Shown: positions 2,920 to 31,475 of the stretch, piece after piece | Layout: the number at the start of each line of letters is the position of its first letter | Numbering within the stretch: the first letter of the stretch is position 1 | NCBI GenBank assembly: GCA_016215705.1 | Contig: JACRIR010000237.1 | Coordinates: forward strand, 1 to 32,010 | Direction: 5' to 3' | DNA: 32,010 nt | DNA from: Candidatus Poribacteria bacterium | GTDB lineage: Bacteria; Abyssobacteria; SURF-5 | Made by a program: the position numbers and the translations under genes | The notes under the pieces: generated by a model | Seen by the model: the letters and a program-made list of their open reading frames with translations, nothing else | Database searches by the model: none | What the model was told of the DNA's origin: nothing

Positions 2920-3501
2920 TCAGTATGACTGCCTTGACTTTGCTCTCTTCATACCCTGCAGATCGCCTATCCAAAAGACACTTGCTGAGTCTCCCATGAA
3001 ATGCAGAAGCAGTTTATGATCCTTGTTGTCAGCAACAAAAATCGGTTCTTCAATGTCATAAGGAATCATAGCCCAATAGATTTGCAGCTCCTCGGCGTTT
3101 GGCTTGCGGATTCTGTAAGGGCCACCTGTTTTCAGGTATCCTTCCATCGTCCTGCAAAAAGCAGAGATTTCCTCTTTGGTTCTAAAGACTGCTCCCTCAA
3201 GCGTCTGTACGCTGCCATTGCTCAATGGGATTACAAAATTCGCCGCAATCACCTTGTGATTCCTGAGCGACTCCATGTTCTTGATCTGAGCCCAAGGGAG
3301 CGGACCACACGTAACATTGCGACCAAACAGGTCATCCAACTTGACAGACGTCTGAGAGAAAACACGCTCCAGCTTCTTCTGAGCCTTCATATTTATCTCA
3401 TCCGACGCTTTAACATAGCGGATACCCGGCGGTATCTCGTCAGAAAAAGCGCTTGACGAGAACGTCATGACCAGCAAACACACTATCATGAATCTTTTCA
3501 T
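2920..3501 (-). CDS. Small exported protein of unknown function
   Basis: A 193-residue protein with a clear signal peptide: MKRF, then the hydrophobic run MIVCLLVMTF, then a small-residue cleavage region, SSSAFSDE. The ATG at 3501 is chosen because GGAGG lies 6 bp upstream and the signal peptide starts exactly there; longer in-frame starts would bury it. The mature part has no motif I recognise. It contains GRNVTCGPLPWAQ, a mixed alpha/beta segment, and an aromatic C-terminus (LLHFMGDSASVFWIGDL). Two cysteines remain in the mature part (VTCG and AFCR), so it could be a disulfide-bonded client of the redoxin encoded 101 bp upstream on the same strand. That partnership is inference from position. 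Confidence 0.75.
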   Translation of the reverse strand: MKRFMIVCLLVMTFSSSAFSDEIPPGIRYVKASDEINMKAQKKLERVFSQTSVKLDDLFGRNVTCGPLPWAQIKNMESLRNHKVIAANFVIPLSNGSVQTLEGAVFRTKEEISAFCRTMEGYLKTGGPYRIRKPNAEELQIYWAMIPYDIEEPIFVADNKDHKLLLHFMGDSASVFWIGDLQGMKRAKSRQSY

Positions 3502-3602
3502 AATCTTCCTCCAGCAAACTGTGCCTGAAGGCGTTTCGACCGCCGGATATTCTCGATTGAAATCCGTATCCATCCGGGTGTCTCCGCAGTTGGAACCGCG
3601 AA

Positions 3603-4214
3603 TCACTTAGTGACGGCTTGGAGTCGAGCAGGGGTGAGAGCATTGTCAGCTTTAAGCACGAACTCGATATTTTGGGTAAGCTCAAGTTCGAGATTCTCAA
3701 TTGTGCCGGTCCAGCTTTCATATATCGTGCCCTGCTGGTCTATGAGATAGAGTGTCGGGATCACGTGGGCGCGATAGGTGTCAAATATCTTCGATCCCTT
3801 ATCGTGGAGGATCGGGAGCGATGTCTTGATCTTTGCCATTATCTTCTGTGTTTTCTTTATGTCTCTGTCGTCATTTATGGCGAATACGGCAAGTCGCTCC
3901 TCGCCGAATGTCTCTGCCACCTTGCTGACTACGGGAAACTCCCGCAGACACGGCTTTCAGCCCGCGTTCCAGAACATCAGAAGCACCGGCCTGCCGCGGA
4001 ATTTGTCGAGCGAGATCGTCTCACCACTCAACGAGTTGAGCTGAAAGCCGGGAGCGTCAACGCCTGCTTTGAGAGGAGGCGGTGGGGGCGTTTTTGGCTC
4101 AAATGCGCCTCGCATCGCTATCGGAGTCCCAACCACCACTGAGACCATGGCCGCGCATGCAAGCACGAGCAAAAGGACTCCTGTCAGCCTTTCCTTCGAA
4201 ATCTTACGGTTCAT
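3603..4214 (-). CDS. TlpA-like thiol redoxin selenoprotein with UxxC active site
   Basis: Reading through one in-frame TGA at 3957-3959 gives a 203-residue protein. It has an N-terminal membrane anchor or signal (residues 10-29), a proline linker (PPPPP), and a thioredoxin-fold redoxin domain: APGFQLNSLSG, then FRGRPVLLMFWNAG, then U-K-P-C, LREFPVV, AVFAIND and VIPTLYLID with the conserved cis-Pro. The TGA (codon 86) falls exactly where TlpA/ResA proteins have the first catalytic Cys, and C89 completes the pair, so it is read as selenocysteine. A hairpin at 3929-3947 fits a bacterial SECIS. No other disruption exists on either side. The protein is probably periplasmic and membrane-tethered, acting as a thiol-disulfide oxidoreductase. 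It starts 15 bp after the Yip1-like gene's stop, so they form an operon. The alternative is a nonsense mutation at the catalytic Cys. Confidence 0.85.
3929..3947 (-). promoter_or_regulatory. SECIS-like hairpin downstream of the Sec UGA
   Basis: On the mRNA sense, CUGCGGG (3947-3941) pairs with CCCGUAG (3935-3929) through seven base pairs including one G-U, closing a five-base loop AGUUU (3940-3936). The stem begins 9 nt after the UGA and a G occupies the second loop position, 17 nt after the UGA. Bacterial SECIS elements lie within the coding region shortly after UGA and carry a G in the first two apical-loop bases, which SelB recognises. The fit is by eye, not by a folding program. Confidence 0.65.
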
Positions 4215-4229
4215 CGATCCCCACCTCTT

Positions 4230-5009
4230 TCACTGAATGGAAAGCCCGAAGAGAAAATCTTGTAAGGCTTCAACGCCGATCAAAGCCGCTATACATACAA
4301 GCCAGTAAAGAGCGGTTATTACGACAGCCTTGTTCCTCTGGACGCGAAGCAAACACTGCAACGAGATTGTCACGAGAACAAACGACCAGAGATGAAAAAG
4401 CTCGATTCGCCGGAGCAGAGGACCCAGCAATTGAGGATAACTGAACCCTCCCGCGAGTTCCAGAAGACCCGTTGGCAATTCGGCATAGAATGCACTGTAA
4501 TTTCCCGTCATCAGTGGAATGAAATACTTCAAGGAAACCCTTGTCAGCGCCGGCACGAATTCCGCGTAGGCCAGACAAGACGCGAGCGGAAAGAAGTTCG
4601 ATCTTGATCCGAAAATCTTCGCAATCACGAGAAGCGCACAAGCCATCATCAAAAGCACAACGATGGAGCCCAGAACTCCCCCAACAAAGTACAGTCCTGT
4701 TGAGAAGACAGCGGTAAAGACTTGGATGAAGGACAAGAACGACCCGTTGAACGGCACAGGTATTTCCTTGCCGAATTTCGAGAAGGCCATCACCATTATG
4801 ATGGACATCCTCAGGACAAATACAATGAGAACCCACAGCATGACGATAATGAGCGGCATGAGCCACTGTGGTTTTCGGGAAAGCTGTTCGAACGCTTTCG
4901 CAGGCGAGATCACCACTGCGCCCAGGCACTCGAGCCGCGAGAGTTCAATCGGCGGAGGCGCAATGTCTGGGGGTGACGCGCAGATTGCATCATTGAGCGG
5001 AGTTTCCAT
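4230..5009 (-). CDS. Yip1-like multi-pass membrane protein
   Basis: A 259-residue protein with a hydrophilic N-terminus followed by about five hydrophobic segments (LMPLIIVMLWVLIVFVL, the stretch after FSTGLYFVGG, LVIAKIF, the WSFVLVTISLQ region and VITALYWLVCIAALIGV). The early sequence CLGAVVISPAKAFEQLSRKPQWLMPL is characteristic of bacterial Yip1-domain proteins. Family function in bacteria is poorly defined and no catalytic residues are evident. The ATG at 5009 is chosen for the upstream AGGAGA. It is the first gene of the operon with the selenocysteine redoxin, and a TTGACA-type promoter lies about 80-105 bp upstream. Confidence 0.75.
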   Translation of the reverse strand: METPLNDAICASPPDIAPPPIELSRLECLGAVVISPAKAFEQLSRKPQWLMPLIIVMLWVLIVFVLRMSIIMVMAFSKFGKEIPVPFNGSFLSFIQVFTAVFSTGLYFVGGVLGSIVVLLMMACALLVIAKIFGSRSNFFPLASCLAYAEFVPALTRVSLKYFIPLMTGNYSAFYAELPTGLLELAGGFSYPQLLGPLLRRIELFHLWSFVLVTISLQCLLRVQRNKAVVITALYWLVCIAALIGVEALQDFLFGLSIQ

Positions 5010-5085
5010 CGGATTATCTCCTGTGGCGGTGTTGTCGCCGTGGTTCCGACAGCGGATATTTTTATTCGGTGGAAACCTTTGATTT

Positions 5086-5115
5086 ATGCTACACCACCGA
5101 CGCGCCACCTGTCAA
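5086..5115 (-). promoter_or_regulatory. Putative sigma-70-type promoter of the Yip1/selenoprotein operon
   Basis: A perfect -35 TTGACA (5115-5110) is separated by 18 bp from TAGCAT (5091-5086). The predicted transcript start near 5079 leaves a 70-nt leader before the ATG at 5009. The -10 matches only four of six consensus bases. Confidence 0.45.
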
Positions 5116-13386: not shown

Positions 13387-16290
13387 TCAGGCTTTTTCGA
13401 CCTCGACGGAGACGGCGCGGTCAACGGGTTGGGTGCACCAGTTCCAGCGATAGTAATTCAGGTGGCCGTAGCCCGCGGCGAGGTCAAGCCATTTGATCAT
13501 GCCCGGAATCGCGGTATCGTAGCTCTTCCACTTCTCGAACTGATACGGCTCCCACGCATGGTAAATGATCACCTGGCCTGGCCGGGTTTCCTCTTGCGAG
13601 CGGGCGGCCGAAGTCAATTTGACGTGAATCTTGAAGTCATCGAAATCGTTGTGCACGCGCACGAGGTCGCCTTCCTTGATGCCGCGCTTCTCGGCGTCCT
13701 CGGGGTTCATGAACATGAACGGACGGCCCTGGTGCGTTCTTGCGAGCACGTCGTCGGTTATCCAGATCGAGTGCACGCTCCATCGCTGGTGTCCGCTTGT
13801 CATTCGTAACGGATAGTTCCCGCCCATCTTCGGGTTGTCCTTGTGGATGGGGAAGCCCTCGCCGGCCTCGAGGAACCAGTCGTGGTCGATGTAGAAGGAT
13901 ATCCTGCGATTATAAGTCGGATACGGAATCTTCTTCGCCGTGTGGTACGTAAGCGGAACGATGGGTTCGTCGGGCTTTATCTCGGTTGCGAGGTGCATCG
14001 CGATCACATCGATCTCGGAAATCTTTGTGAACCGAATGATGCCTTCCTGGCGCATGGTTTTGAGGTCTGTGCCCTCGGGCAGCGAGCCGAGCTTCGCGCT
14101 GATCTTGATCGAATCATCGAGCGTTTCCTCGGCGCTGTCGCGATTCATCGTTGAGCGTTGGAGGATATCCGAAAGGTCGTAACCAGCGCCCCGGCGATTC
14201 TTGTACTTACCGAGTCCTCTTTCCTTCGCAAGCTCTTGCATACGTTCGGCCATATGTTTGAATGTTTCCCATTCCCCCCTGCCTTCACCCGGAGGCGGAA
14301 CGGCGGCTTCGGTCAACGTAAGCCACGGCACGTGGGGTGTCGGGAATCGAGTATCGGTCTTTTCGTAGAAACCGGCGCCGGGCAGAACCATGTCGGACAG
14401 AAGCGCCGTCGTGCTCCAGCGGGTCTCTATCGTAAAGATGAATTTATATTGCTTCCACAGTTCCGGATAGATATTCTTCCACCAGCCGCGGTTCTTTCGC
14501 GCCGGACTCGTGCCGAGGAAGAAATAGACTTGCGGTTTCTGATCGGGGAAAGGCCGGGTGAGACCGTCCCACCATCCCTTCGAGAGCGCCTCATTCATGT
14601 AGTCGTCGAAGCTGCGCTTCATTGTGGGGCAGTGCCACTCCTTCTTGTTCCATGTGTCACGGTAGTTGGAGTGGAAGTAGTAGAGGAACACCGGTGGAAC
14701 CATTCCCCATCTCTCGATGTTTCTTTGCCGCGTGTATTCTCTTTCGAGAATTTCGTCGGTTATATCGGGGTCTTTCTTTCTAATCTCCGCCTTGTCGCGG
14801 TTTCTCTCGAGGAGCATCATGAGAGCGCCAAGGTCGCGACGCTCGAGTGAAAGAAGCATGCTGCCCTCGAACAGTGACTCGCTCCACCCGCGGATGCCGC
14901 TGCCCTTGTTGCCAACGCTTCCGGTCAAGGCGAGCAGCAGGCACATCGCTCGCTCCATCAGGTCGCCATGATAGTATTTCGAGGAGTTCCAGCCCACGAG
15001 TATCTGCACGTGACCGCGCGCCTTCCACGCTTTCTGAGCCAGGCGACGGATTGTATCGGGATTCGCCCCGCAAATCTGGGCCGCCTTCTCCGGAGTGTAA
15101 TCCCTGTCGAGCATCTCTTTGAAGATTGCGAAGCCGGGCCTTACCTCAACCTGGCTGCCGTCCTTCAGTTTCGCGGTATATGTTCCTTCGAGCGCCGGGT
15201 CGCACGACAGTTTCAGCGTGCCGCGCGGCGCTTTCACGGGGGCGTTGGTCGCAGGGTCCCAGAAATAGAGTTGGTCCTCGCGGCCGGTCTTCTCCATGTC
15301 GGTTTCGCGAAGAAACTTCTGGTTGTCACTGCGGATGAGCAGCGGTAAATCCGTCTGCTCTTTGAGGAAAGCCGTGTCGTACGTGCCGGCCGAGATGAGC
15401 GCCTGCGCCACACCGAGACCCAGCGCGGCGTCCGCGCCGGGCTCCACCGGAATCCACTCGTCCGCGTGTACCGCCGAGGGAGAATAGTCAGGGGCTACCG
15501 TTATGATTTCTGCGCCGTTGTAACGCGCGTCGGCGATGAAGTGGTAGCATGGGATGCGCGTGTAAACCGGGTTCATGTGCCAGATGAGAATCAGCTTCCC
15601 GAAGAACCATCCATCGACCGAATCGCAGAACTGGAACTTCCCGAAGGTCTCATATACGCCCTTGTTGAAGTCGCCGATTGTGGAGTTGAGATCGAGCTGG
15701 GTTACACCCATTCCGCCGAGAAAGCGCGAGGCCGCCATCACATGAATCCAGCCGCCGTTGCCGGGACCCGGCTCATAGACGATGGACTCGGGACCTGCGG
15801 TCTGGATGGCGTCGAGCAAATGATTGCACACCTCGTCGATCGCCTCATTCCACGAAATCCGTTTCCATTTGCCTTCGCCGCGTTCGCCCACTCGTTTCAT
15901 AGGATACTTCACGCGGTCGGGGTTGTACATCATGTTGCTGAAAGAGCAACCCTTCTGGCAGCCGCGCGGGTTCCAGTCGGTGCTGTTGGGATCGATGATA
16001 GGATATTTGCCCGCCTGCTCCTCGCGCCAAACAACGCCGTCCTTGGTGTAGACGCGCCACAGGCAGTTGCCGGGGTAACAGTCAACGAGATGCGTGCCGT
16101 AGGTCACCCTGTCCCATTTCCATTCATCCCTATGCAGACTTTCCCAGTTCTTGTATTCCCACTTCTGGAATACCTTTTCGGTCGCCTGCGCTTCTCCCCC
16201 GAGAAACCCGAGTGAGTCGAGCGACAGCGCCAGTGTGGACACACTTGTTATCTTGAGAAAATCACGCCGCGTAAACCTGAAACCCGACAT
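13387..16290 (-). CDS. Tat-exported type II DMSO-reductase-family molybdoenzyme, catalytic subunit
   Basis: 967 residues. A Tat signal (TRRDFLKI, residues 7-14) indicates export of the folded cofactor-bound enzyme. The Fe-S site has His67, Cys71, Cys76 and Cys111 (HLVDCYPGNC, then NPRGCQKG), the His-first pattern of type II enzymes such as ethylbenzene dehydrogenase and nitrate reductase. MKRVGERGEGKWKRISWNEA closely follows the ethylbenzene-dehydrogenase branch. Asp207 in LNSTIGDFN is the likely molybdenum ligand. A C-terminal molybdopterin-dinucleotide domain contains GGNYPLRMTSGHQRWSVHS. Substrates in this branch include alkylbenzenes, alkanes, steroids, DMS and oxyanions; none can be assigned. 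No iron-sulfur, heme or chaperone subunit is adjacent. AGGAGG precedes the ATG, within leader copy C. Confidence 0.9.
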   Translation of the reverse strand: MSGFRFTRRDFLKITSVSTLALSLDSLGFLGGEAQATEKVFQKWEYKNWESLHRDEWKWDRVTYGTHLVDCYPGNCLWRVYTKDGVVWREEQAGKYPIIDPNSTDWNPRGCQKGCSFSNMMYNPDRVKYPMKRVGERGEGKWKRISWNEAIDEVCNHLLDAIQTAGPESIVYEPGPGNGGWIHVMAASRFLGGMGVTQLDLNSTIGDFNKGVYETFGKFQFCDSVDGWFFGKLILIWHMNPVYTRIPCYHFIADARYNGAEIITVAPDYSPSAVHADEWIPVEPGADAALGLGVAQALISAGTYDTAFLKEQTDLPLLIRSDNQKFLRETDMEKTGREDQLYFWDPATNAPVKAPRGTLKLSCDPALEGTYTAKLKDGSQVEVRPGFAIFKEMLDRDYTPEKAAQICGANPDTIRRLAQKAWKARGHVQILVGWNSSKYYHGDLMERAMCLLLALTGSVGNKGSGIRGWSESLFEGSMLLSLERRDLGALMMLLERNRDKAEIRKKDPDITDEILEREYTRQRNIERWGMVPPVFLYYFHSNYRDTWNKKEWHCPTMKRSFDDYMNEALSKGWWDGLTRPFPDQKPQVYFFLGTSPARKNRGWWKNIYPELWKQYKFIFTIETRWSTTALLSDMVLPGAGFYEKTDTRFPTPHVPWLTLTEAAVPPPGEGRGEWETFKHMAERMQELAKERGLGKYKNRRGAGYDLSDILQRSTMNRDSAEETLDDSIKISAKLGSLPEGTDLKTMRQEGIIRFTKISEIDVIAMHLATEIKPDEPIVPLTYHTAKKIPYPTYNRRISFYIDHDWFLEAGEGFPIHKDNPKMGGNYPLRMTSGHQRWSVHSIWITDDVLARTHQGRPFMFMNPEDAEKRGIKEGDLVRVHNDFDDFKIHVKLTSAARSQEETRPGQVIIYHAWEPYQFEKWKSYDTAIPGMIKWLDLAAGYGHLNYYRWNWCTQPVDRAVSVEVEKA

Positions 16291-23795: not shown

Positions 23796-25226
23796 TTATC
23801 GGGAAAGGCCCGCATATCTGAGCGCGCTCCAGAGGCCCTTTGACAGGCGCACAATCTCGCGGGGATGCCGGAGTCTTTTCGCCCGCATGAGCATGTACGA
23901 GGGCCGGAAATAGAATCTCCGGTAAGCTCTTGAGATGAGGTTCTGAAGTTTGTCGGGGCTGAGGTCCCTTGTTCCGACTACGGGAGCGCGACTCGTGAAC
24001 AGCGACCAATCCTGAGTGCAAAGTCCCTCGCGCTTGAGTTGCTCGTAATAGAGCGTGTTCGGATATGGAGTGGCGGCGGTGAACTGCGCAACGTCGGGAT
24101 TGAGGCCGATAGCCAACTGCACGGTGGCCTCGACCGTCGCCTCCGTCTCGCCCGGAAGGCCGATGATGAAGAACGCCATTGTCTCGATGCCCATACGACG
24201 GCACTTGTCGAACAATCCTCGAATGCGTTCCGCAGAAATGGGAATCCGTTTGACGCCCTTCAGGATTTCCGAACTGCCCGACTCGACGCCGAAATTGATC
24301 TCTTTGCAGCCGGAGCGGGCAAACGCCTCAATCATGTCCTCCGTCGCGAGGTCGGCGCGCGTCTCGCAGCGCCAGTCAACCTTTATGCCGCGCTCGACGA
24401 TAAGCTCGCTTATCCGGAGAGCCCGTTCCTTATCTGCCGTAAATAGCGGGTCGCGAAAAAGAATCTCGCGCACACCGTGCCGGCGCACGCATTCTTCGAT
24501 CTCCTCAACGACGTTATGAGGGCTGCGCGCCCGCCATTCCGTGCCCTGCCCGATGCGGTATGGGCAGTAGATGCATCCGTAGTGGCAGCCGCGGCTGGTG
24601 AGCATGGTTGTAAAGGGTTTCTTTCCCCAAACTGCCGAACAGTATTTGTCCATCGGCAACAGGTGGCGCGCGGGAAATGGCAGCGAATCGAGGTCGGCGA
24701 TGAACGGCCTATCGGGCAGGCGTTTCAAACCTGCGCCGGATTTTATGCTGAGGCCGGGGATGCCTTCAACCGGTTTGCCTTGTGCAAGCGCGCTTGCGAG
24801 GTCGGCGATGGTGTATTCGGGCTCACCGCGTACAACCGCGTCCGCGCGTGATTCCTTGAGCGCCTCCTCGGAGAAAACGGTTACGTGGGGCCCGAGCAGG
24901 ACGACGAAAGTCTTCGGGCACGATTCTTTGATGGCGTTCGCAATCGCCAGATCGTCAGCGATAGACGGCGTTGCCGTGCTTACCGCTGCGAGCGCGTAAT
25001 TCCCGGACTTCATCCGCTCAAGGACCCTGGCAGGTCCCAGCCTGAGCGCGACCGCATCCAATATCTCCACCTCGTGCCCCAATTTCTCCAGGACGGCGGC
25101 GCAGTAGGCGAGGCTGAGAGGGGGCGTCATGTTGGTGCTTTTTATCTCGAAACCGAAGCCGCCCATGTGGTCGCGGCTGATCACGATGTCACGTTCGGGC
25201 TGAGGATTCAGGAGAAGTATTTTCAT
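23796..25226 (-). CDS. B12-binding-domain radical SAM protein
   Basis: 476 residues. An N-terminal cobalamin-binding-like Rossmann domain (MKILLLNPQP, PPLSLAYCAAVLEKLGHEVEILDA, VVLLGPHVTVF) is followed by a radical SAM barrel with the 4Fe-4S motif Cys214-x3-Cys218-x2-Cys221 (SRGCHYGCIYCPY), then FRDPLFTADKER, NFGVESGSSEILKGVKR and FFIIGLPGETEATVEA. The DxHxxG cobalamin motif is not evident, as is common in this class. Such enzymes often methylate unactivated carbons or modify lipids and sugars; the substrate is unknown. ATG 25226 (MKILLL) is chosen although its Shine-Dalgarno (AAGG) is close. A longer GTG start would lie within the REP palindrome at 25261-25311. It follows the GT2 gene co-directionally. 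Confidence 0.85.
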   Translation of the reverse strand: MKILLLNPQPERDIVISRDHMGGFGFEIKSTNMTPPLSLAYCAAVLEKLGHEVEILDAVALRLGPARVLERMKSGNYALAAVSTATPSIADDLAIANAIKESCPKTFVVLLGPHVTVFSEEALKESRADAVVRGEPEYTIADLASALAQGKPVEGIPGLSIKSGAGLKRLPDRPFIADLDSLPFPARHLLPMDKYCSAVWGKKPFTTMLTSRGCHYGCIYCPYRIGQGTEWRARSPHNVVEEIEECVRRHGVREILFRDPLFTADKERALRISELIVERGIKVDWRCETRADLATEDMIEAFARSGCKEINFGVESGSSEILKGVKRIPISAERIRGLFDKCRRMGIETMAFFIIGLPGETEATVEATVQLAIGLNPDVAQFTAATPYPNTLYYEQLKREGLCTQDWSLFTSRAPVVGTRDLSPDKLQNLISRAYRRFYFRPSYMLMRAKRLRHPREIVRLSKGLWSALRYAGLSR

Positions 25227-25260
25227 ATGCCTTACCATGCTGCAATCGAGGGCGCTTATT

Positions 25261-25311
25261 CGGTATTTATTCGGGGACACGATGCGGCATCGTGTCCCCG
25301 AATAAATACCG
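25261..25311. repeat. 51-bp perfect REP palindrome
   Basis: Perfectly self-complementary about 25286, with outer arms CGGTATTTATTC/GAATAAATACCG and core GGGGACACGATGC. It lies in the 96-bp gap between the GT2 and radical SAM genes and may limit read-through or protect mRNA ends. Confidence 0.95.
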
Positions 25312-25322
25312 CATCTTGCGCG

Positions 25323-26516
25323 CTACACTGTCCGATCCCGTTTTACGCGTTCCCAGAGCGCATTGAAGTCGCCTCTGAAGTACTTCAGACTCGCGGTCGC
25401 CAGATGTGAGGCGACCAGAATCATAGCGGGGATTGACACAAGCATGTCTTTCAGAAATCTGCGCGGCTCCGCCACGAGCGGCGCCAGGAGCGCAGTTCCT
25501 GCGATATAGCAGCCTAGTACTAAGAAGGCCATCGTCGCGAGTAATCGTCCTGCAACAGCCGGTTGGAAGAAGATCGCATGGACGAGTGCGGCCCCAAATG
25601 AAAGTATCAACAGATGCGGCCTCAGAATTCGGAACAGCGCGTATTCGGGGAAAATCAGAAGGCCGTACCAACCGTATCGCGGATTGCAGAGCAGCCCGGG
25701 GTGCCGGAAAAGCGATTGCGTCATTGCGCCGATGTTGCGTTTTTTCTGCCGCGAGAAATCATCGAGCGACTCCGGCGCGTGGTAAGTGGCTGAAGCGGAC
25801 GGTTCCAACCTTGCGCGATACCCGTGCTCCCTGAGCGCGATGCCGAACTCGCGGTCTTCGTAAATGACGTCGGTAGAGAAATCGCCCACGGCGCTGCGCC
25901 GGACAAGCGAGAATTGGCCGAACAGGCCCGCAGCGCTGTCGAGGCAACTCTCGCCGAATTTTTGGGCGTTTTGCACATCAAAGAGGAACTGCGAGACGCG
26001 CGTCAGATAATTCACCTCGCGGTTGCGCACCCGGATGGTCGGCGAAACGCCGCCGACTCCGGGGTCAGCCATATGGGCAACCAGTTTCCGCAACGTGTCG
26101 GCCGGCGCCAACACGGTTACGTCAGTGATGGCGATGATCTCGTTCCGGGCGCCGGCGAAGGCGGTTTTTTGGGCGAATATCTTTCCTTTTCGCTCTCCGG
26201 CCTGAACGAGGAGAACCTTTTTTTCTGCAAACAAGTGTGCCACTTCGGCAGTCCGGTCAGTCGAACCGTCGTCAACCACTATTACTTCTAGAAGCTCCTT
26301 GGGATAGTCCGACTCGAGGATGTTCTCCAGCTTCCTCTGAATATGTTTTTCTTCATTATAAGCAGGGATTATGACGGTTATGGGAGGAATGAAGCCGCGG
26401 GCGGGCGCGGGTCGCCGCAAGAGTCCGGCCAGAAGGACAACGAGATTGTAAAGCACATATTGGCCCACGGCGATTCCGAAGGCAACAAATGAAATCGTCA
26501 GAATGAGTGATGCCAT
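25323..26516 (-). CDS. Membrane glycosyltransferase family 2
   Basis: 397 residues: an N-terminal membrane helix, a GT-A domain and three or more C-terminal helices. The GT2 motifs are VIIPAYNEEKHI, VIVVDDGSTDRT, the acceptor-side YEDREFG and RQKKRNIG in place of the usual QxxRW. At the DxD position the sequence is ITDVTVL, so the second Asp is replaced. This may alter metal binding, as seen in some processive-like GT2 branches. It is probably an integral-membrane enzyme using a nucleotide sugar. It lies 53 bp downstream of the toroid gene and belongs to the glycan-like cluster. Confidence 0.85.
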   Translation of the reverse strand: MASLILTISFVAFGIAVGQYVLYNLVVLLAGLLRRPAPARGFIPPITVIIPAYNEEKHIQRKLENILESDYPKELLEVIVVDDGSTDRTAEVAHLFAEKKVLLVQAGERKGKIFAQKTAFAGARNEIIAITDVTVLAPADTLRKLVAHMADPGVGGVSPTIRVRNREVNYLTRVSQFLFDVQNAQKFGESCLDSAAGLFGQFSLVRRSAVGDFSTDVIYEDREFGIALREHGYRARLEPSASATYHAPESLDDFSRQKKRNIGAMTQSLFRHPGLLCNPRYGWYGLLIFPEYALFRILRPHLLILSFGAALVHAIFFQPAVAGRLLATMAFLVLGCYIAGTALLAPLVAEPRRFLKDMLVSIPAMILVASHLATASLKYFRGDFNALWERVKRDRTV

Positions 26517-30283: not shown

Positions 30284-31147
30284 CTACTGAGTTCGTTTGT
30301 CTATAAGGTCGGCCAACAGTCCGATGACAGCCACTTGTATCGCGAAGGATATCAGGATGACGACCGTCACGTCCATGACTTTGTGAAGAACAAATCCGCT
30401 GTACAGCAGCAGTGCGACGCCGGCCAGAAACAAAGCGGCGCTGATGGGGAGGAATATCTTGAGCGGATTGAAATACATAATGGTGCGCACGATGATCATG
30501 AGGAATCCCAATGTGTCGGAGAACGGCCGAATCTTGCTTTTGCCCGTCCGCGGATGATAGTCAATCGGGCTGAATCGAACGCGGAAATTATTGCTCAGCA
30601 TGGCGAGAGTGATTGTGGTTGTGAATGAAAACCCCTGCGGAAGTATGTTCAAGAAACGCTCGAGCACAGATTTTCGCATCACTCGCATGCCTGAATTCAA
30701 ATCAGGGATTTTCGTGGAGGCAAGGTAATTCGCGAGAGCCGTCAGCGCCCACTTGGCAGGCCGCCTCATGAGTGGCATGGCGACATTGTCGCCGGTGCGC
30801 GCTCCGACGACCATGTCCGAGTCGTTCATGCTCCGGACAAGTTCGGGGAGCGCCTCGGGCGGATACGTGCCGTCGGCGTCCGTGATGGCGACCAGCGCGT
30901 GCCGCGCTGTCTTTAGGCCTTGTTTGATCGCCGCACCGTAGCCGAGATTCAGGCCGAGATCGATCACGCGTACATGGGGGCGTTCGGCCGCCACGCGAGA
31001 GGTTCCATCGCTCGAGCCGTCGTTGACGACAATGATTTCATGCTCGATCCCCGCTGCTTCCATCGCAGACGAGACACCCTTCAGCACCTTTCCGATGCTT
31101 TGTTCTTCATTATGCGCGGGAATGATTATTGATACCGGCTCTGCCAC
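30284..31147 (-). CDS. DPM1/DolP-mannosyltransferase-like GT2 with C-terminal membrane helices
   Basis: About 287 residues. The GT-A domain is classic: VSIIIPAHNEEQSIGKVL, IIVVNDGSSDGT, LGLNLGYGAAIKQGL, ITDADGTYPPEAL with an intact DxD, and PDLNSGMRVMRK. Two hydrophobic helices follow near the C-terminus (FLPISAALFLAGVALLLYSG and VVILISFAIQVAVIGLLADL). The family transfers a sugar from a nucleotide donor to polyprenyl phosphate, supplying GT39-type and related enzymes. The GTG at 31147 is preferred because GGAGGT lies 5 bp upstream; an ATG at 31159 lies within 3-4 bases of the predicted transcript start. It is the first gene of the five-gene cluster. Confidence 0.88.
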   Translation of the reverse strand: MAEPVSIIIPAHNEEQSIGKVLKGVSSAMEAAGIEHEIIVVNDGSSDGTSRVAAERPHVRVIDLGLNLGYGAAIKQGLKTARHALVAITDADGTYPPEALPELVRSMNDSDMVVGARTGDNVAMPLMRRPAKWALTALANYLASTKIPDLNSGMRVMRKSVLERFLNILPQGFSFTTTITLAMLSNNFRVRFSPIDYHPRTGKSKIRPFSDTLGFLMIIVRTIMYFNPLKIFLPISAALFLAGVALLLYSGFVLHKVMDVTVVILISFAIQVAVIGLLADLIDKRTQ

Positions 31148-31168
31148 AGTCACCTCCATTTGCGGGCC

Positions 31169-31177
31169 ATTATAGCA
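31169..31177 (-). promoter_or_regulatory. Extended -10 promoter (TGCTATAAT) of the glycan cluster
   Basis: A perfect extended -10, TGCTATAAT, ends at 31169. No good -35 is seen, which extended -10 promoters can do without. The predicted start near 31162 would leave a leader of only about 15 nt containing GGAGGT before the GTG at 31147. The rest of 31178-31475 shows no further feature. Confidence 0.6.
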
Positions 31178-31475
31178 TAGAATTCGCAGCGCGGCATAGC
31201 CACAGCCAAAGAAGAAGCTTAAGCCATTGAGGACACCGAGCTCACTGAGAAATACTGTTTTTGCCATCGAGCAGACGTGCCGCGTTGAAGTTGATAAAAG
31301 ATTGTGCAAACAAATTGGCGACTACATAGTCCTGTCCCGGTTCGCCGGTTATGGGACACTCTCAAGAGAGGTATTCGACTAGGGGGGAAAGAGGGGATTC
31401 GCCTGTCGGTTGTCTTCCCTTGCGTTCTTTGCGGCTGCGAATGAATTCACACCCGTACGACTGTCGAATAGGTTT

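Follow-up and report, generated by a model that had tools for sequence, protein, structure and literature searches.

Does the in-frame TGA that splits a redoxin gene in this DNA mark a broken gene, or is it read as selenocysteine (Sec)? The stretch analysed here (the window; 32,010 nucleotides) lies on contig C176 of genome G000, a 5.47-Mb draft assembly of 270 contigs that is 92% complete. We are highly confident that the locus is a functional selenoprotein gene in which UGA codon 86 is decoded as Sec. The product would be a ResA/TlpA-like thiol-disulfide oxidoreductase that is exported and probably anchored in the membrane. A first-pass annotation had proposed an undetected selenoprotein with UxxC replacing CxxC. 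Four observations made here support that proposal: an open reading frame on both sides of the TGA, a set of Sec-decoding genes, a UxxC position that is conserved in relatives, and a SECIS-like hairpin; the strand, a Sec-containing paralogue and the SECIS hairpin are additions of the present analysis.

The gene occupies positions 3603 to 4214 on the minus strand, as the first-pass annotation had it apart from the strand, which it did not give; a plus-strand reading of the interval is meaningless and was rejected. Translation starts at an ATG at 4214, preceded by a Shine-Dalgarno-like GAGGTGG (4221 to 4227, minus strand), and ends at a TGA stop at 3605-3603. With the internal TGA read as U, the 203-codon frame gives MNRKISKERL...VLLMFWNAGUKPCLREFPVV...HVIPTLYLID...AVTK. 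The TGA at 3959-3957 (codon 86), which falls at the first catalytic position (FWNAG-U-KPC), is the only internal stop, and there is no frameshift. Under translation table 11 the gene yields two truncated proteins, as had been anticipated, of 85 aa (3957-4214) and 105 aa (3603-3920). The domain is intact and in the same frame on either side of the TGA, as also claimed earlier: residues 51 to 165 of the joined protein align with AhpC-TSA (E = 3e-22), a stretch that spans the TGA. When searched against redoxin families, the 203-residue read-through protein scores 79.3 bits with PF00578 (gathering cut-off, 26) and carries the UKPC motif; PF08534 and PF13905 also exceed their cut-offs, again with matches that span the TGA. 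Reading through restores the full length of a predicted envelope redox protein, which would be cut in two by automatic annotation.

Residue 86 (3957 to 3959, minus strand) is the first position of the UxxC motif, and it aligns with Cys or with a TGA codon in all homologues. The resolving cysteine, Cys89 of UKPC, is a TGT at 3948 to 3950, and Pro153 of VIPTLYLID is encoded at 3756 to 3758, both on the minus strand. U/C86, C89, and P153 are invariant in the homologue alignment, which includes all of the TGA-containing redoxins from other phyla described below except that of G008. Pro153 presumably corresponds to the proline that faces the active site in thioredoxin folds, its cis geometry being assumed from knowledge of the fold. 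A hydrophobic segment at about residues 9 to 26 (4137 to 4190, minus strand) is predicted from the sequence to be a signal anchor or signal peptide. Of the traits expected in exported ResA/TlpA-like redoxins, the protein shows UxxC and, at Pro153, an invariant proline, while its N-terminal membrane anchor or signal is a candidate judged by eye; a helix at residues 7 to 24 appears in a single-sequence AlphaFold model that is of low confidence (mean pLDDT, 49) and too poor for a fold search.

The first-pass annotation argued that a random nonsense mutation would be unlikely to strike exactly codon 86. The conclusion holds, by way of a paralogue, more distant homologues, and a SECIS hairpin, but the argument from position is weaker than implied, because cysteine codons are one base from TGA. 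Among the 203 codons, 11 can become TGA by one substitution, which puts the chance that a random nonsense mutation lands on codon 86 at roughly 1 in 12. The selenoprotein case rests on the other three lines of evidence, the position of the TGA alone being insufficient. The same figure lends something to the view that the locus is a pseudogene, a CxxC redoxin in which one base change turned Cys into TGA and left only two truncated pieces: the chance of striking codon 86 is not negligible, and with numerous further TlpA/ResA paralogues in the genome, one loss might be tolerated. However, the gene has no other stop or frameshift, the genome encodes the full Sec machinery, and an unlinked paralogue as well as six distant redoxins have a TGA at the corresponding codon.

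No closer homologue was found than this paralogue, which lies on contig C145, is 38% identical, and is conserved on both sides of the TGA (19/35 residues identical before it; 17/45 and 24/63 after it). Its motif is FWSAGUNSCLREFP, with a TGA at the same position. Differences between the two genes are heaviest at third codon positions, and by inspection the genes around the C145 copy are not arranged like those in the window. Six redoxins from outside the phylum also carry a TGA at this site: two in G032 (FWATWUPSC and FRTTWUHSC), one in G033 (FWATWUPTC), two in G049 (FWATWUPYC and FRTTWUQSC), and one in G008 (FWGDWUPPC). The other homologues have Cys at position 86. Decay around the TGA was sought in relatives and none was seen: the paralogue and the six redoxins of other lineages keep UxxC, and the remainder keep CxxC. 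No orthologue closer than the 38% paralogue was found. The two other genomes of the family that were compared hold only distant Cys homologues, and a scan of named genome contigs returned a single distant Cys homologue. Viral contigs gave none, and the plasmids scanned gave only distant relatives (<60% identity), the best of them annotated as ordinary TlpA/redoxin proteins. It is conceivable, though doubtful, that the FWNAGU/FWSAGU pair forms a Sec subfamily of its own among the ResA-like envelope redoxins, specific to this lineage, expanded by duplication in a poorly sampled phylum, and with a selenium-dependent electron-transfer role beyond that of Cys ResA.

Two other matches were considered as selenoproteins and rejected. 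A C83 match listed with one TGA has a CLPC active site, its TGA being the gene end, and G035:C209 was set aside on the same grounds. Separately, C83:33720-46650 of the same genome (L055) holds at least six Cys-type TlpA/ResA-like redoxin domains clustered within 13 kb.

Directly downstream of the UGA, folding and covariation predict a bacterial SECIS hairpin (3926 to 3950, minus strand). Its sequence is CUGCGGGA-GUU-UCCCGUAG, with a core stem pairing 3947-3940 with 3936-3929 and the apical loop GUU at 3939-3937. The loop lies 17 nt downstream of the UGA and its first base is G, the geometry of a bacterial SECIS element, in which a stem-loop directly follows the Sec codon and carries a G in its small apical loop. 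An Rfam search of the window gave no match. To gauge coding constraint, the 16 codons downstream of the TGA were replaced by synonymous ones drawn from local codon usage. The natural hairpin has an energy of -14.1 kcal/mol, whereas the recodings have a mean of -4.9, and 11 of 3,000 were as strong (0 of 200 in a separate run). In redoxins matched by a C/UxxC...ExP motif, the mean energy is -11.6 kcal/mol for six TGA genes and -2.7 for 24 Cys genes, and the hairpin was not seen in the 24 Cys homologues.

In an alignment of six TGA genes, which share the position of the hairpin, 91.7% of the cells of the 8-bp stem are paired. At four pairs both sides vary yet still pair, which makes a total of 10 cells; this level was attained by 2 of 500 shuffles, and every slid control is far lower. 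The result is somewhat favored by a mild selection effect, since the alignment leaves out G049:C27 and G008. In these two UxxC genes with TGA, the scan found no hairpin of the shared shape. The innermost three stem pairs are invariant and uninformative, lying partly in GAG TTT CCC (Glu-Phe-Pro); because these codons help to form the inner stem, the hairpin is conserved in part through protein constraint. The selD and FdhA genes of this genome also have strong hairpins, with no clear excess over synonymous recodings; failing the recoding test would therefore not disprove a SECIS element, while passing it stays informative.

A covarying hairpin that exceeds coding constraint further argues against the pseudogene, which we consider very unlikely. 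It also bears on a sequencing or assembly error that turned TGC or TGT into TGA. The assembly is a draft in 270 contigs, but an error would not produce a SECIS that covaries, nor would it explain why the C145 paralogue and other redoxins have the same TGA, and we regard this explanation as extremely improbable.

Sec decoding at codon 86 also fits the gene content of the genome. selA (C228:46088-47185; 485 bits) adjoins selB (C228:43728-45614; 371.5 bits), tRNA-Sec (selC) with a TCA anticodon lies at C59:13392-13486 (68 bits), and selD is on C134 (391 bits). With all four genes present, absence of selB and selC, which the first-pass annotation had named as evidence against its proposal, does not apply. 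selD has its own in-frame TGA, in SGGUACK; UxxK is the motif listed for Sec-containing SelD (PMC13188914). A formate dehydrogenase-like (FdhA-like) gene has a TGA at CARLUHSP both in this genome and in the relative G001, and the counterpart in G002 has one TGA too. The TGAs of selD and the FdhA-like gene thus indicate that Sec is in use in this lineage.

That several genes of the genome carry internal TGA codons could also be read as a code change throughout the genome, with TGA reassigned to a standard residue such as Trp or Gly. However, the redoxin gene and its upstream neighbor both terminate in TGA, the large genes of the window are open under table 11, the TGAs of selD, FdhA, and the redoxins fall at known Sec sites, and a tRNA-Sec with TCA is present, leaving reassignment scarcely credible. 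Taken together, UxxC in the paralogue and homologues and the SECIS evidence make pseudogene, sequencing error, and reassignment all unlikely.

Two further genes of this genome have TGA codons of their own. C85:2108-2485 (L077) encodes a SelL-related AhpC-TSA protein with FRGLWULFC, a probable further selenoprotein. Near position 27300 of C77 (L079), the gene of a DMSO reductase type II-like molybdopterin enzyme contains TGA-TGC (U-C) in place of the Gly-Ser (GNKGSGIRG) that is found in 7 of 7 close paralogues from G000 and G001, including window 13387-16290. The site requires three base changes over two adjacent codons, the frame stays open for hundreds of codons beyond it, and no SECIS-like hairpin beyond coding constraint was found in this gene. 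The gene may be a young pseudogene, the codons may be an error, or the site may be an unusual Sec-Cys pair. The enzyme at window 13387-16290 is a DMSO reductase type II/ethylbenzene dehydrogenase-like catalytic subunit, with four close copies in the genome, counting itself and the C77 copy. Elsewhere in the window, a B12-binding radical SAM protein (23796-25280) lies near glycosyltransferases (25323-26516 and 30284-31309).

For the selenoprotein, a working mechanism can be proposed. SelB would deliver Sec-tRNA to UGA86 using the SECIS hairpin directly downstream, and the putative N-terminal hydrophobic segment would export the redoxin to the envelope. There, Sec86 would attack and Cys89 would resolve the mixed bond, so that the protein may reduce an envelope disulfide or an oxidized substrate. 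These residue roles and the envelope thiol-disulfide oxidoreductase action are assumed from what is general for ResA/TlpA-type thioredoxin folds. The neighboring genes give no clear hint to a partner or substrate. Upstream, a Yip1/YknW-like membrane protein gene (4230 to 5108, minus strand; PF04893, 6.6e-15; YknW_fam, 1.6e-21, below cut-off) ends 15 nt before the redoxin ATG, and the two genes are probably co-transcribed. The downstream open reading frame (2920 to 3606, minus strand) has no Pfam or NCBIfam match; its product is probably exported, the likely real start being an internal ATG at 3501 followed by a predicted signal peptide, MKRFMIVCLLVMTFSSSAFS.

How does this protein relate to known redoxins? 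The earlier label "TlpA-like" is fair, although the closest curated model is ResA and neither a ResA nor a TlpA cut-off is reached. The best NCBIfam model, ResA NF002854, gives 93.7 bits against a cut-off of 170, so the protein is ResA-like; TlpA NF047696 gives 54.1 bits against 230, making it TlpA-like only. The closest solved relatives by sequence are Bacillus ResA structures (PDB 4nmu and 1st9), the best being ResA-type 4nmu (1.5e-19). The active site is at the same place, with the first Cys of CKPC aligned to U86; ResA has Cys where the window redoxin has Sec. The ResA-like WAxxUGC selenoprotein family NF041054 is matched weakly (2.9e-09; 36.7 bits against a cut-off of 300), and its motif is UGC rather than UxxC.

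Selenoproteins with UxxC are already listed in reviews as cd02966 "thiol-disulfide isomerase-like" and PF08534 "redoxin family" proteins (PMC13188914, PMC9312934, and PMC1088965, cited jointly with PF00578). They share the same broad fold, and PF08534 is matched above cut-off here, whereas no curated subfamily model covers the window redoxin. The PF00578 "Prx-like thiol:disulfide oxidoreductase" selenoproteins, a prokaryotic UxxC family in PMC13188914 and PMC9312934 and already treated as known in PMC1088965, have the same Pfam domain and the same motif. The window protein appears to differ in being ResA-type, with an N-terminal hydrophobic segment and FWNAGU rather than the common FWATWU. General knowledge of selenoproteins is unchanged by this finding; the redoxin, its paralogue, and the SECIS together cleanly illustrate how selenium is used in a bacterial phylum from which three genomes were compared. 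The window redoxin is a further member of the recognized UxxC selenoprotein class, and what it contributes to that class is a Sec-containing paralogue alongside it and a SECIS that shows covariation.
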